Origin: an uncultured Cetobacterium sp.
Lineage (GTDB): Bacteria; Fusobacteriota; Fusobacteriia; Fusobacteriales; Fusobacteriaceae
Reading direction: 5' to 3'
Assembly: GCA_949293295.1 (NCBI GenBank)
Contig: CASFCG010000016.1
Coordinates: 1 to 64,000, forward strand
Length of the DNA stretch: 64,000 bases
Program-made: the position numbers and the translations under genes
Shown: one piece after another, positions 26,094 through 64,000 of the stretch
How the letters are laid out: each line of letters begins with the position of its first letter
Numbering within the stretch: position 1 is the first letter of the stretch
Notes under the pieces: model-generated
Told to the model about the DNA's origin: nothing
Databases searched by the model: none
Seen by the model: the letters and a program-made list of their open reading frames with translations, nothing else

Positions 26094-26374
26094 TTGACAT
26101 TTTATAAAAAGAATGTTATCATAAGCAAAATAAAATAAAAAATAGAGTAATTTAGGTAGAGGTTGCAAAAGACAAGAGTAGTTCAATGGAGTTTGACAAG
26201 CTGTGATGTTGGATGAAAGGGGATTTTGCCGAAGTGAAAATCTTTGTCAGAAGATTTTTGCTGGGGATATAGATAATATCTATATAACTGTCATTGAGTT
26301 TCAATGTTGTGCTATCCTGAGTTTGTATTGAATTACAACACTACCGTTATAAATTACGGTAGTTTTTTATTGAT
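26094..26374 (+). promoter_or_regulatory. Lysine riboswitch (L-box) with promoter and terminator
   Basis: Promoter TTGACA (26094-26099), 17 bp, TATCAT (26117-26122). The leader from about 26155 contains the L-box signature in order: GGTAGAGGTTGC, AAGAGTAG, GATGAAAGGGG, TTTTGCCGAAGTGAAAATC and TTGCTGGGGATAT. It ends with the terminator CTACCGT/ACGGTAG (26341-26364) and TTTTTT. High lysine should favour termination before the transporter gene. Confidence 0.9.
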
Positions 26375-26394
26375 TGAAAATGGGAGGTATAGTT

Positions 26395-27846
26395 ATGGAA
26401 ACTATTTTTGAGATTTTAAGATTAAGCCCTGTTCTTGTATTGGCGACGCTGATATTTAACGAAATGGATGTGTTATTAGCGGCTCCAATAGCAACAGTAT
26501 ATGCATCAATAGTGGCTCATTTTGTGGATAAAAAGAGGGTTAGTGAGATTATGGATGCAATAATAAATAATGCTAAAGATATGCAAATAGCGTTTTTTAT
26601 TTTAATGATGGCATACGCCATGGCAGAGGTTTTTATGGCGACTGGAGTCGGAGCAGCAATTATTAAATTAGCATTAAATGTAGGATTAACAGGTAGAACT
26701 GTTGCAGTTGTTGGTGTATGTGTGTCAGCTGTATTGTCAATTGCTACAGGAACTAGTTGGGGAACCTTTGCAGCATGTGCTCCGATTTTTCTGTGGTTAA
26801 ATCATATTGTTGGCGGAAGTATTCCTTTGACAATAGGTGCTATAGCTGGTGGAGCTTGTTTCGGGGATAATATCGGTCTAATATCGGATACAACAATAGT
26901 TAGTTCTAGTATTCAAAAAGTTGAGGTTGTTAAAAGAATTAGACATCAAGGTGTGTGGTCTGTATTGGTTTTACTTTCTGGAGTTATAGTGTTTTATGTA
27001 ATGGGAATTATATTGAATCTTCCAATAACTTCGGGAGATGCTGTAGAGGCTATAAATAATATCCCAAATGATGTATGGGCAATTTTGGCAGAGAAAAGAG
27101 AATCAGCTGTAAAATTATTAAATCAAGTAAAAACAGGAGTTCCTATCTATATGATAGTACCACTAATTTTTGTTTTAATTGCAGCATTTAGAGGGATGCC
27201 AACTATGTTATGCTTATTAATAGGGATTGTATCAGCTTTCCTATTTGGAAGAGTAGCGGGAACTGTAAAAGATATTAATTCATTTTTAGAACTTATATCA
27301 AGTGGATTTGTAAACGCTGGTTCATGGGTAATAATAATGATGATGTGGATTGCAGCTTTTGGTGGAGTGATGAAGATGATGAATGCGTTCAGACCATTAT
27401 CTAGAGTGATTATAAAGGTTTCGAGAAATGTTAGACAGTTGATGTTTTGTAACGGAGTATTGTCAATATTGGGAAATGCAGCCTTAGCTGATGAGATGGC
27501 ACAAATAGTTACCATAGGACCGATTATAAGAGAAACGGTTGAGAACAATGTCGAAGGAGATAAAGAGGATATGGAGACTTTGAGGTTAAGAAATGCAACA
27601 TTTAGTGATGCATTAGGTGTTTTTGGTTCACAACTTATCCCATGGCATGTGTATATAGGATTTTATTTAGGAATAGCCCAAGCGGTTTACCCGATATATA
27701 AGTTTGAAGCAATAGATATAATTAAATATAATTTTTTAGCTATAATAGCTGTTGTATCCATTCTTTTATTTACTTTGACTGGTCTTGATAGAATGATACC
27801 TAGATTCTCATTACCTCAGGAACCAAATGTAAAGTTAAAAAAATAG
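26395..27846 (+). CDS. NhaC-family transporter, predicted lysine transporter (LysW type)
   Basis: The 483-residue protein has about 12 membrane segments with NhaC-superfamily motifs SIATGTSWGTFAACAPIFL and GGACFGDNIGLISDTTIVSS, and a second-half NAALADEMAQIVTIGPIIRE. NhaC annotations mean Na+/H+ antiport, but L-box control and published comparative genomics of NhaC-like LysW proteins point to lysine uptake. I chose ATG 26395, with GGGAGG upstream, over ATG 26374, which lies inside the T-run side of the terminator. Terminator at 27857. Confidence 0.85.
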   Translation: METIFEILRLSPVLVLATLIFNEMDVLLAAPIATVYASIVAHFVDKKRVSEIMDAIINNAKDMQIAFFILMMAYAMAEVFMATGVGAAIIKLALNVGLTGRTVAVVGVCVSAVLSIATGTSWGTFAACAPIFLWLNHIVGGSIPLTIGAIAGGACFGDNIGLISDTTIVSSSIQKVEVVKRIRHQGVWSVLVLLSGVIVFYVMGIILNLPITSGDAVEAINNIPNDVWAILAEKRESAVKLLNQVKTGVPIYMIVPLIFVLIAAFRGMPTMLCLLIGIVSAFLFGRVAGTVKDINSFLELISSGFVNAGSWVIIMMMWIAAFGGVMKMMNAFRPLSRVIIKVSRNVRQLMFCNGVLSILGNAALADEMAQIVTIGPIIRETVENNVEGDKEDMETLRLRNATFSDALGVFGSQLIPWHVYIGFYLGIAQAVYPIYKFEAIDIIKYNFLAIIAVVSILLFTLTGLDRMIPRFSLPQEPNVKLKK

Positions 27847-48193: not shown

Positions 48194-49621
48194 ATGAGTA
48201 AAAATTTTTATGTAACAACACCTATTTATTATGTAAACGGAGACCCGCACGTGGGGAGTGCATACACTACAATTGCGGCTGATGTAATAGCTAGATATAA
48301 AAAATCTAAAGGTTTTAATGTTTTTTTTCTAACAGGAACAGATGAACATGGACAAAAAGTGGAAGAAACAGCAAGAGGTAGAGGATTGACACCACAGGAA
48401 TGGGTAGATTCTATGGCTCCAAAATTTGTAGATATGTGGGAAAGATTGAATATTAATTATACGGACTTCATTAGAACTACGGAATTAAGACATAAGGAAG
48501 CTGTAAAAAAAATATTAAAAACTGTATATGATAAGGGGGATATCTACAAAGGGGAGTATGAGGGGAAATATTGTGTTTCTTGTGAAACTTTTGTTCCAGA
48601 AAATCAGATTATAAACAATAATTGTTGTCCCGACTGTGGAAAAGAATTAAGAACGGTAAAAGAGGAGTCCTACTTTTTTAAGATGTCAAAATATCAAGAG
48701 CTTTTGTTAGAACACATAGAGAAGAATCCTGATTTTATCCTGCCTATTTCCAGAAGAAATGAGGTAATATCTTTCATAAAGCAAGGATTGCAAGACCTTT
48801 CAATCTCAAGAACGACATTTGAATGGGGAATACCGATTGAGTTTGCTCCAGGGCATATAACTTATGTTTGGTTTGATGCTTTAACTAACTATTTAACAGC
48901 AGTAGGATACGAGAATAACTCAGAACTTTTTGATACTATGTGGAATAATGGAGAGGTTGTACATCTTTTGGGGAAAGATATTTTGAGGTTTCACGCTATA
49001 ATATGGCCTTGCATGTTACTTTCAGCGGGAATTAAACTTCCAGATAAGATAGTTAGCCATGGATGGTGGACCTCTGAAGGGGAGAAGATGTCTAAATCAA
49101 AGGGAAATGTTGTTTCACCAGTTGAAGAGATAGAAAAGTATGGAGTAGATGCATTTAGATATTGCTTGATGCGTGAGGTAAATTTTGGAAATGATGGTGA
49201 TTATTCAACAAACTCTATAATCAATAGAATAAACTCAGATTTAGCGAATGACTTAGGAAATCTATTAAATAGAACTTTAGGAATGTATCACAAATATTTT
49301 GATGGAGTAATTAGAGAGAGTGGAAAAGTGGAAGAGATTGATTTGAATGTAATCTCTCTTTACGATGAAACTATAAAAATTATTGAAGAGCATACGGGAA
49401 AATTTGAATTTTCCAAAGCTTTAGAAGCTATATGGCGATTTATATCTAGAATGAATAAATATGTTGATGAGACGACACCGTGGTTATTGATTAAGGATGA
49501 AACTAAAAAACAGAGATTAGCTACTGTAATGAATTTTTTAATAGATTCATTAGTAAAAATAGCGGTTTTAACAATGCCTTATATGCCAGAAGCTTCACAA
49601 AACATATGGAATCAACTGTGA
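48194..49621 (+). CDS. metG: Methionyl-tRNA synthetase, catalytic and anticodon domains, ended by in-frame TGA
   Basis: 475 residues. The HIGH-like signature is DPHVGSAYT, the zinc knuckle CVSC/CCPDC, KMSKS is GEKMSKSKGN, and the anticodon-binding helical domain continues to NIWNQL. The frame then meets TGA at 49619-49621 and continues open to 50107 as the C-terminal tRNA-binding domain. Families of this type are about 640 residues; the combined frame has 638 codons including the TGA. A single base change (GGA Gly to TGA) would explain it. A truncated MetRS of this extent is enzymatically active as a monomer in E. coli, so the gene may still work. A sequencing error is the main alternative. 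Confidence 0.88.
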   Translation: MSKNFYVTTPIYYVNGDPHVGSAYTTIAADVIARYKKSKGFNVFFLTGTDEHGQKVEETARGRGLTPQEWVDSMAPKFVDMWERLNINYTDFIRTTELRHKEAVKKILKTVYDKGDIYKGEYEGKYCVSCETFVPENQIINNNCCPDCGKELRTVKEESYFFKMSKYQELLLEHIEKNPDFILPISRRNEVISFIKQGLQDLSISRTTFEWGIPIEFAPGHITYVWFDALTNYLTAVGYENNSELFDTMWNNGEVVHLLGKDILRFHAIIWPCMLLSAGIKLPDKIVSHGWWTSEGEKMSKSKGNVVSPVEEIEKYGVDAFRYCLMREVNFGNDGDYSTNSIINRINSDLANDLGNLLNRTLGMYHKYFDGVIRESGKVEEIDLNVISLYDETIKIIEEHTGKFEFSKALEAIWRFISRMNKYVDETTPWLLIKDETKKQRLATVMNFLIDSLVKIAVLTMPYMPEASQNIWNQL

Positions 49622-50107
49622 ATAAATAAGAGTATAGAAGAGGCTGAAATTTTTGATGTTGAGGGATGGCAACTTTTAGAGATAGGTCATAAATTGGGAG
49701 AGCCAGTTCCAATTTTTCCTAGAATAGAGTCAGAACAGAAAAAAGGGAGTTTTGAGATAGATGAAAATTTAAAAATAGAATCTCCAATTGATATTTCAGA
49801 ATTTGATAAGATTGATATTCAAGTCGTGGAAATTTTAGAAGTAAGTAAGATCGAGGGGGCAGATAAACTATTAAAGTTTAAAGTAAAAACTGCTAAAGAG
49901 ATTAGACAGATTGTATCAGGTATAGCAAAATATTACTCTGAACCTGAAGTGTTAGTTGGAAAAAAAGTTATGGCTGTTTTAAATCTACCACCTGTTAAGC
50001 TTAGAGGTGTTCTATCACAAGGGATGTTGTTAAGTACAACAGAAAAGAAAAATATAAAATTAATTGAGATAGATAGTGAAGTAAAAATTGGTGCTAAAGT
50101 AAAATAA
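49622..50107 (+). pseudogene. metG: Detached C-terminal Trbp111/EMAP-like domain of metG
   Basis: In the same frame as metG, after the TGA. From INKSIEEAEIFDVEGWQLLEIGH it runs without interruption through a linker and the OB-fold dimerisation/tRNA-binding domain (IDISEFDKIDIQVVEILEVSKIEGADKLLKF; SGIAKYYSEPEVLVGKKVMAVLNLPPVKLRGVLSQGML). No convincing independent start: TTG 49694 lacks a ribosome binding site. Without readthrough or reinitiation this part is probably not made. Confidence 0.75.
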
Positions 50108-50122
50108 AAATGGAGGAGAGAG

Positions 50123-51001
50123 ATGAAAAAAGTTACAAAAGCAGTTATACCTGCAGCAGGTTTAGGAACAAGAGTATTGCCAGCAACGAAAGCTCAACCA
50201 AAGGAGATGTTAGTAATAGTTGATAAACCGTCTCTTCAATATATTGTAGAGGAATTAGTAGCTTCTGGAATAACAGATATTTTAATTGTTACAGGTAGAA
50301 ATAAAGATTCCATTGAGGACCATTTTGATTTTTCATATGAATTAGAGCATAGTTTAGAAAAAGCAGGGAAATTTGATTTACTAAAAAAAGTTGATGATAT
50401 TTCAAGTTTAGCAAATATCTACTATGTTAGACAAAATCATCCTTTAGGATTAGGACATGCTATATTAAAAGCGAAATCTTTTGTAGGGGAAGACCCGTTT
50501 GTGATAGCGTTGGGAGATGATATTATTTATAATGCAAATAAACCCGTTGCAAAACAGTTAATAGAGGTTTATGAAAAGTATCAAACTAATATTGTTGGAG
50601 TTCAAGAGGTTGCAAAGGGAGATATTTCAAAATATGGGATAGTAAGGCCAACAGATAGGTATGATGAAAAAAACGTTAAAATAGCTGATTTTATAGAGAA
50701 ACCAAAAATTGAGGAAGCTCCATCAAATCTGGCGTGTCTAGGAAGATATCTGTTGACAGGAGATATTTTTGAATATTTAGAGCAGACAAAGCCAGGTAAA
50801 GGCGGAGAGATACAGCTTACGGATGCTATTCTGAAAATGATAAAAGATGATAAAACTACACTTGCATATAGCTTTGAGGGAAAAAGATATGATATCGGTA
50901 ATAAACTAGGACTTTTAAAAGCCAATATTGAATTTGGACTCAGAAATGAAGAAACAAAAGAGGGGTTGCTAAAATATCTGAAAGAGGAGATTAAAATTTA
51001 A
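50123..51001 (+). CDS. galU: UTP-glucose-1-phosphate uridylyltransferase
   Basis: 292 residues: AVIPAAGLGTRVLPATKAQPKEMLVIVDKPSLQYIVEE is the nucleotidyltransferase signature, followed by VRQNHPLGLGHAI, IALGDDIIY and FIEKPKIEEAPSNLACLGRYLL. Makes UDP-glucose for envelope sugars. RBS TGGAGGAG. It shares one base with the following GroEL-like gene. Confidence 0.95.
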   Translation: MKKVTKAVIPAAGLGTRVLPATKAQPKEMLVIVDKPSLQYIVEELVASGITDILIVTGRNKDSIEDHFDFSYELEHSLEKAGKFDLLKKVDDISSLANIYYVRQNHPLGLGHAILKAKSFVGEDPFVIALGDDIIYNANKPVAKQLIEVYEKYQTNIVGVQEVAKGDISKYGIVRPTDRYDEKNVKIADFIEKPKIEEAPSNLACLGRYLLTGDIFEYLEQTKPGKGGEIQLTDAILKMIKDDKTTLAYSFEGKRYDIGNKLGLLKANIEFGLRNEETKEGLLKYLKEEIKI

Positions 51002-52617
51002 TGGTAAAGCTTTTGAAATTTGATTTTGAAGCAAGGGAGAAATTAGAGAAAGGTATCGATACAGTAGCTAATGCTGTAAAAGTTACATTGGGTCCAAAAG
51101 GTAGAAATGTAGTATTAGAAAGAGTTTATGGTGCTCCATTGATAACAAATGATGGAGTGTCTATTGTCAAAGAGTTGGATTTGGAAGACCCGTATGAGAA
51201 TATAGGAGCACAGCTTTTAAAAGAGGTTGCTATTAAGTCGAATGAAGTTGCTGGAGATGGAACAACAACAGCCACGATATTAGCACAGCAGATAGTAAAA
51301 GAGGGATTAAAAAAAGTTGAAGCTGGATATAATCCCACTCTAATAAAAAGAGCTATTGAAACTATTTCAAAAGTTGTATTGAAAAAAGTAGAGGAAAGAA
51401 CTAGAAAGATATCTAGTGCTGAGGAGATATTTCATATTGCTTCTATTTCTGCAAATGATAAAGAGATTGGAAAGATAGTGGCAGAAGCCATAGAAAAAGT
51501 TGGAGAGAATGGAATTGTAACAATTGAAGAGGGACACTCTTTTGAGACAAAATTAGAGATAGTGAAAGGGATTGAATACGAAAAAGGATATATATCACCC
51601 TACATGATAACTAATTCTGAAAAGATGGAAACGGTTTTAGAAAATCCATATATCTTGCTTTCAATGGATAAGATAAGCACTCCGAAACAGTTGTTGCCGT
51701 TTTTAGAACATGTAGTAGAGTCAAATTCATCCATACTGATTGTTGCTAAGGATTATGAAACTGAGGTATTAAACACCATAGTTTTAAATAAAATTAGGGG
51801 AAGTATAGAGATTGTAGCGACGAAGCTTCCAGCATTTGGAGACAAGAGAAAAGAGATATTGGAGGATATAGCTATTTTAACAGGAGCAACAGTTGTATCA
51901 GAGGAAAAAGGAGTTAATATTCTGGGAGCAACCCCTTTTTATCTTGGAAAAGCTGAAAGAGTGATAGTAAATAAGGATAGGACTACAATTATAAATAGTT
52001 TACCAAATGAAGAGAGGATAAATAAGAGAATAAGTGAACTAAAAGAGCAAGTAAAAATTAGTACATCTGAATATGTGATTGAAGAGTTGCATAGGAGAAT
52101 AGCTTCTTTGACTGAAGGAGTGGCATTGATAAAAGTTGGAGCTACAACAGAGATTGAACTAAAAGAAAAAATATTAAGATATGAGGATTCTTTAAATGCT
52201 ACAAAATCAGCATTAGAAGAGGGAGTTGTCGCTGGTGGTGGAATAGCATTATACGAGATATCTAAAGAGTTAAGAGAGTTAGAACTAAATGATGAAGTTG
52301 AAGAAATAGGTTTGCAAATAATAGAGAGTGCTTTAAAAGCACCATTGAAGCAAATAGTATTAAATGCTGGATTGGAATTTGAACAAATATTAAAGAAGTT
52401 AGAGGGATTACCAAAGAATTATGGAATAGAGATATTGAGTGAAAAATTCGTTGATATGTTTGAGGCTGGAATAATTGATTCAACTAAGGTTGTAAAATCA
52501 TCATTTTTTAATGCAGTATCTGTAGCGAGTTTAATTTTAACAACAGATGTGATAGTTATAAATAAGAAAGAGGATAATTTTAAAGAGGATGATGAAAGGG
52601 GGCAATATTTTGGATAA
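51001..52617 (+). CDS. GroEL-family chaperonin paralogue (no GroES, no GGM tail)
   Basis: 538 residues with the GroEL core: VANAVKVTLGPKGRNVVLER, the ATPase GDGTTTATILAQQIV, GEEGVVAGGG-type EEGVVAGGGIALYEI and FGDKRKEILEDIAILTGA. Compared with standard GroEL several invariant stretches vary (TVVSEEKGVNIL, RYEDSLNATKSALEEG), the C-terminus is DNFKEDDERGQYFG rather than a GGM repeat, and no groES precedes it. It overlaps galU by one base and the phosphohexomutase gene by 8. It is probably a second, specialised chaperonin; whether it is the only groEL cannot be seen in this window. Confidence 0.88.
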   Translation: MVKLLKFDFEAREKLEKGIDTVANAVKVTLGPKGRNVVLERVYGAPLITNDGVSIVKELDLEDPYENIGAQLLKEVAIKSNEVAGDGTTTATILAQQIVKEGLKKVEAGYNPTLIKRAIETISKVVLKKVEERTRKISSAEEIFHIASISANDKEIGKIVAEAIEKVGENGIVTIEEGHSFETKLEIVKGIEYEKGYISPYMITNSEKMETVLENPYILLSMDKISTPKQLLPFLEHVVESNSSILIVAKDYETEVLNTIVLNKIRGSIEIVATKLPAFGDKRKEILEDIAILTGATVVSEEKGVNILGATPFYLGKAERVIVNKDRTTIINSLPNEERINKRISELKEQVKISTSEYVIEELHRRIASLTEGVALIKVGATTEIELKEKILRYEDSLNATKSALEEGVVAGGGIALYEISKELRELELNDEVEEIGLQIIESALKAPLKQIVLNAGLEFEQILKKLEGLPKNYGIEILSEKFVDMFEAGIIDSTKVVKSSFFNAVSVASLILTTDVIVINKKEDNFKEDDERGQYFG

Positions 52618-62924: not shown

Positions 62925-64000
62925 ATGGATATTTTAGAATTAAAGAGAGAGTACAATGAATTTAGGGAAAAAATTGATTTAATTAGGGGGTCTCTTTGAC
63001 TTAGAAAGAAGAAGAGAGATTGTTTTAGAGCTTGAAAAAGAAAGTTTTAAGGAAGGATTTTGGAGTGATAAACAAAGAAGTAATAAGATAATCAAAGAGA
63101 TGAACGAACAGAAAGAAGTTATAAGAGAGTATGAGGAGATAGAACAGATTTTTTCAGATGTAGGTGTATTGATAGAGTTCGTAGAGGCAGGAGAAAATGA
63201 TTTTATCTTTGAATTAGAAGAGAAACATGGTAGTTTAAGAGATGTGATAGAAAATTTTGAAACCAAGATGTTATTAAATGAGGAATATGATAGTAATAAT
63301 GCAATCATGACAATACACTCAGGAGCAGGTGGGACAGAAGCATGTGATTGGGCAGATATGCTTTATAGAATGTATATGAGATGGTTTAATACAAAAGGGT
63401 TTAAAGTGAGTGAAATAGATTTTATGGCAGGAGATTCGGTGGGAATAAAATCAATAACTTTAATGATAGAAGGAGTTAGGGCTTATGGGTATTTGAAAGG
63501 TGAAAAAGGAGTACATCGTTTAGTAAGAATATCACCATTTGATGCTAATAAAAAGAGGCATACATCTTTTGCTTCAGTAGATGTTATGCCTGAAGTGGAT
63601 GAGAGTGTGGAGATAGAGATAAATCAATCTGATTTAAGAATAGATACATATAGAGCCTCGGGAGCAGGCGGTCAACATGTTAATATGACTGATTCAGCAG
63701 TGAGAATAACACATATTCCAACGGGGGTAGTAGTTACATGCCAGAGGGAAAGGTCACAGTTGAGTAACAGAGAGACTGCAATGAAACTTTTAAAATCAAA
63801 ACTTATAGAGATAGAGTTAAAAAAGAAAGAGGAAGAGATGAAAAAAATACAGGGAGAACAGAGTGATATAGGATGGGGAAACCAAATACGTTCCTATGTA
63901 TTTCAGCCATATACTTTAGTAAAAGACCATAGAACACTTGTAGAATCAGGAAATGTAAAGGCAGTAATGGATGGAGATATAGATAGTTTTATTAATGGAT
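62925..64000 (+). CDS. prfB: Peptide chain release factor 2 (partial, programmed frameshift)
   Basis: The zero frame from ATG 62925 gives MDILELKREYNEFREKIDLI plus RGSL and reaches TGA 62997-62999; a +1 shift at CTT TGA C continues DLERRREIVLELEKE without a break to the right edge (about 358 residues visible, gene incomplete by a few codons). RF2 marks are the SPF recognition tripeptide (RISPFDANKKRHTSF) and ASGAGGQHVNMTDS with GGQ. It terminates at UGA and UAA. Coding parts are 62925-62996 and 62998 onward. Confidence 0.95.
62985..63000 (+). promoter_or_regulatory. prfB programmed +1 frameshift site
   Basis: AGGGGG (62985-62990), TCT, then CTT TGA C. The internal Shine-Dalgarno and the slippery CTT-TGA-C match the conserved RF2 autoregulatory site, with TCT in place of the usual TAT. 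Confidence 0.95.

Follow-up and report, generated by a model that had tools for sequence, protein, structure and literature searches.

The metG gene, which encodes methionyl-tRNA synthetase (MetRS), is essential in bacteria. The closest described counterparts of the locus considered here are the full-length bacterial MetRSs with a C-terminal OB-fold domain (NF008900, or TIGR00398 with TIGR00399). Our metG is like them in sequence, domain order and length, and shares its downstream gene order with the loci of relatives, but differs by one TGA at codon 476. Many bacteria have a MetRS that lacks the C-terminal domain (frames of 510–537 amino acids); these natural short, monomeric enzymes keep the whole core and end at about residue 507–519 in the numbering of our protein. 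Core constructs of 500–551 amino acids exist in the PDB, and separate beta chains are also known (8vtz, 1pyb). In E. coli, the available part of PMC11004401 describes metG630, a late truncation caused by a C-terminal frameshift at about residue 626 of MetRS, as viable and highly persistent. In-frame stops in bacterial genes are, in the accessible text of PMC7918605, widespread and often short-lived real variants. The metG stop is comparable to these in being an isolated in-frame stop with constrained flanks, but the same text focuses on stops found in at least two species to limit artefacts, whereas the metG stop is found in one genome only.

The locus lies in a draft genome of an uncultured Cetobacterium sp. 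(1,175,016 bases, 26 contigs, 82.76% complete), within what we call the window, the whole 64,000-nucleotide stretch of contig C16 that was analysed. At this completeness the 1.175 Mb draft compares with 1.7–3.1 Mb for 11 congeners (2.1–3.1 Mb in 10 of the 11), and the species is possibly genome-reduced. Elsewhere in the window, a lysine riboswitch (RF00168, 113.6 bits) occupies positions 26149–26322, upstream of an ORF at 26374–27846.

On the forward strand, metG spans positions 48194–50107, from an ATG at 48194 to its normal end, a TAA at 50105–50107, giving 638 codons. The in-frame TGA to which the preliminary description drew attention is confirmed at 49619–49621. It forms codon 476 of 638 and is followed by 161 sense codons and the TAA, so that the product would be 637 residues long if the TGA were read through. 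Codons 1–475 (48194–49618) cover the whole catalytic domain and the greater part of the domain that binds the anticodon, matching the NCBIfam methionine--tRNA ligase profile NF008900 (742 bits, profile positions 3–476 of 648), PF09334 and, partially, PF08264/PF19303. The part after the stop matches NF008900 too, in register (profile positions 483–648 of 648), and the two halves are therefore one gene. The frame after the stop had been described as continuing directly into the C-terminal tRNA-binding domain. The continuation stands, but the domain does not follow at once: PF01588, the tRNA-binding OB fold (49817–50098), begins 66 residues past the stop, and the first 30–35 or so residues after the stop still complete the anticodon-binding core. 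Codons 477–512 (49622–49729) comprise this remainder of the core, including a GHxLGxPxPIFPRIE segment, and are retained in natural short MetRSs, as indicated by PDB core chains, the frame lengths of relatives and AlphaFold2 pLDDT. In place of the uninterrupted frame of some 630–640 codons expected of a full-length MetRS gene, the locus thus has a frame broken once, at codon 476; its three domains (catalytic, anticodon-binding and OB) share a single register and are under constraint. Downstream, at 51001–52617, lies a Cpn60 gene of the GroEL family, the only one detected in this draft; it is just about 56% identical to the gene in the same place in relatives, compared with about 80% for metG and the next upstream gene.

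The read-through protein was searched against 149 relatives and found a match in every one, mostly at full length. Within the same family (G001–G060), metG has no stop in the matched part in 59 of 60 genomes, and the remaining one (G025) shows no metG; the match in G006 ends at residue 432, the end of its contig. The TGA is therefore not a chance pairing of two ORFs. For the C-terminal part of MetRS, relatives in public collections include Fusobacteriaceae and Psychrilyobacter records. At codon 476 itself, 37 loci from two sets (29 and 8, some of which may be the same genomes) encode Gly as GGA, GGT or GGG in 36 cases and Ala in one (L016, Streptobacillus). This comparison agrees with the earlier proposal that the stop replaces a glycine codon, and on these alignments it is private to this genome among the relatives examined.

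The wider condition of the genome was assessed in 77 genes from 235 kb, each aligned over at least 85% of the relative's ORF with at least 45% identity. Artefacts of tRNA regions and two partial matches, one of which lies where a retrieved stretch of sequence ends, were set aside, and many genes in the 235 kb have no counterpart in the stretches of relatives that were used. In all, 27,372 residues were aligned; an interior stop occurs in metG and in no other gene, and no frameshift is apparent in any of the 77. In five other genes, stops are aligned no further in than residue 21 of the reference ORF; we read these as over-extended reference starts, four after inspection and one (C16:130518) by position only. 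With a single interior stop and no frameshifts, the genome is not visibly decaying, and the lack of frameshifts indicates that the consensus is generally good. Genome decay as an explanation is thus unsupported in this sample.

Constraint on metG is likewise intact. Among 231 columns that are invariant in 35 relatives, one of the 197 before the stop is broken here (K470N), and none of the 34 after it. Distances to seven outgroups average 0.213 before the stop and 0.366 after it, compared with 0.164–0.184 and 0.319–0.357 for the corresponding parts of ten congeners. Judged by these distances, metG in this lineage evolves somewhat quickly on both sides of the stop, and no faster after it. Since constraint beyond the stop is intact, the TGA is either very young or absent from the living gene. 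Neither relaxed constraint after the stop nor broken genes nearby, as a pseudogene in a decaying genome would show, were found. The one broken column, K470N (49601–49603), lies six codons upstream of the TGA and is Lys in all 35 aligned relatives. A looser set, which admits columns with one deviating relative, has nine breaks in 303, the TGA included, and we estimate at about 10% the chance that one of the other eight breaks would fall as near to the TGA. The position of K470N is a weak hint that the TGA lies in a poor local patch of sequence.

UGA is a true stop in this genome, as the preliminary description had held. The prfB gene carries its autoregulatory frameshift site (AGGGGG TCT CTT TGA C) at 62994–63000 on the forward strand, indicating that RF2 is present and UGA is a stop, and it keeps its SPF and GGQ motifs. 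In the full-length comparison of 77 genes with relatives, the stop is TAA in 40, TAG in 27 and TGA in 10, and each of the ten TGA ends lies no more than 14 codons from where the alignment ends, at the place expected of a stop. Furthermore, Gly in the aligned relative is matched here by GGN at 1,528 of 1,855 positions and by TGA at just one, the metG codon. None of the 34 tRNA genes, all of which were given an anticodon, carries UCA, and no tRNA-Sec exceeded the cut-off, although the draft is incomplete and such absences are not proof. The stop is followed by no SECIS-like hairpin, in that its surroundings show no structure beyond that of shuffled sequences. The prfA gene (RF1) was not found in the draft even though 27 of the 77 genes end in TAG, and is probably missing from the assembly.

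A PF09334 search of the whole draft gave the two parts of metG as its only strong match; the remaining matches are weaker and belong to different, long frames that resemble synthetases. A search at the DNA level likewise turned up the metG region a single time. The draft has two PF01588 domains, one in metG and one in an 806-residue frame taken to be pheT, and the same is true of congeners. We reject, for this draft, a second metG, which the preliminary description had proposed to look for, and likewise a spare protein with an OB domain: metG is single and the second PF01588 sits in the 806-residue frame, with the proviso that a second copy could lie in the part missing from a draft that is 82.76% complete.

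We consider it probable that the TGA is a consensus error or a minority variant in the draft, and the sequences suggest no new way of reading metG. The TGA would then be a local base-level fault, whether a base called wrongly or a minority variant that the assembler adopted, and the single-copy gene itself would be normal and functional, with MetRS made at full length. We infer that a sense codon stands at position 476 in the reads or the population, and in the living population this would most likely be Gly, as in relatives. This explanation is favoured because metG is essential and present in a single copy, because all 34 invariant residues after the stop are kept while distance is not raised more after the stop than before it, and because a 475-residue product would lack part of the core. 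The fragmentary state of the draft (26 contigs, 82.76% complete) and the lack of visible decay, with one interior stop in 77 genes, also favour it, as, weakly, does the K470N change six codons before the TGA. The preliminary description is supported in offering a wrong base call, here the leading explanation, in its account of an in-frame TGA at a glycine position of an essential gene, which is single-copy here, and in taking UGA as a true stop. On the other side, the rest of the sample is clean, with no frameshift in 77 genes, which suggests a generally good consensus, and short-lived real in-frame stops are reported as common in the available text of PMC7918605.

The alternative that survives best is that the TGA is real and recent, and that ordinary leaky read-through of UGA supplies the little full-length MetRS on which the strain lives, with Trp inserted by tRNA-Trp and growth probably slow. 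We regard this as unlikely, while still deserving consideration. The accessible portion of PMC11126739 describes UGA as the stop that leaks most in E. coli, usually with Trp inserted, and readthrough as reaching several percent in some contexts. The frame beyond the stop is intact, and common short-lived in-frame stops, as reported in the part of PMC7918605 available to us, would fit such a variant. However, Trp would here take the place of a nearly invariant Gly. No suppressor tRNA was found: the tRNA-Trp anticodon is CCA, and its D arm, by our own numbering, shows no sign of G24A, the classical suppressor change in this tRNA. Moreover, RF2 has Ala in its R-A-SGAGGQ stretch; Ala before GGQ is the efficient form of the factor, unlike the Thr of E. 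coli K-12. Nor is there a stable RNA structure at the stop that might act as a read-through signal, since 176 of 200 shuffled sequences fold at least as well (z = 1.1). Read-through at CTG TGA A, raised as an option in the preliminary description, could occur in principle, but nothing speaks for it specifically and we found no special signal for it.

It is improbable that the TGA is real and that MetRS works here as a monomer of 475 residues with no tRNA-binding domain. Such a product would share with natural short MetRSs the lack of that domain, and the OB-less enzymes, the PDB core constructs and the viable metG630 strain (PMC11004401, in its available part) count in its favour. The difference lies in where the cut falls. 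PDB cores without the OB domain align as far as residue 507–516 of our protein (4qrd to 509, 1a8h to 507, 5xet to 515), and among relatives whose metG match starts at residue 7 or earlier no frame is shorter than 510 amino acids, save that of G006 at its contig end. The 497-residue chain 2csx, which we take to be the Aquifex alpha subunit, aligns 488 to 479 and so extends about 30 residues beyond codon 475 here. An AlphaFold model built from 14 sequences was poor overall (mean pLDDT 59) and was used just for local confidence over residues 441–534 or so. It is locally confident over 441–500 (block means 79–92, and 81–89 over 481–500), with a helix at 465–474, and falls below pLDDT 50 over 509–534, a likely linker. 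From these alignments and the model, a protein of 475 residues would lack the end of the core and not the OB domain alone. All these natural or engineered cores retain the segment equivalent to 477–507/516, and the metG630 cut, placed at about residue 626 in the available text of PMC11004401, lies far beyond codon 476 and so sets no precedent for a cut within the core. A truncated monomer, which the preliminary description had listed as an option, is therefore unlikely to function: the cut falls in the anticodon-binding core rather than after it, at a cost of some 30–35 core residues.

It is very improbable that the TGA is fixed in the lineage and that MetRS is throttled or split at the UGA, as a little read-through product or as a 475-residue alpha chain with a restarted beta chain in trans, with methionine charging tied to RF2 activity. 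A gene fission under way, with the beta chain restarted at a TTG at 49694–49696 to give an alpha/beta MetRS of the Aquifex type, seems more doubtful still. This TTG is the sole ATG, GTG or TTG in frame shortly 3' of the stop and has an AGG 7 nt upstream, and the 137-residue open frame that it would begin holds the whole OB domain, a composition for which the known separate beta chains offer a parallel. As a start, however, it is a weak candidate, left behind a 72-nt gap, and the split point would lie inside the core, about 30 residues before the end of 2csx. The locus therefore has neither the complete-core alpha chain nor the clearly initiated beta chain of a split enzyme, and no relative examined shows such an arrangement. 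Lastly, the recoding of UGA, as Gly after the manner of code 25, in which UGA means Gly, or as Sec at codon 476, can be rejected as scarcely credible despite the stop's position at a conserved Gly, being already contradicted by the TGA gene ends, the tRNAs, prfB and the Gly-codon counts.

If the TGA is an error, as we think probable, this locus is a caution for the annotation of draft genomes, in which automatic calls would label an essential gene as broken. If it is real, a natural UGA within the core of this synthetase, both essential and single-copy, would put directly to the test how much leak at UGA can sustain life, and the level of MetRS in this organism would be linked to RF2.
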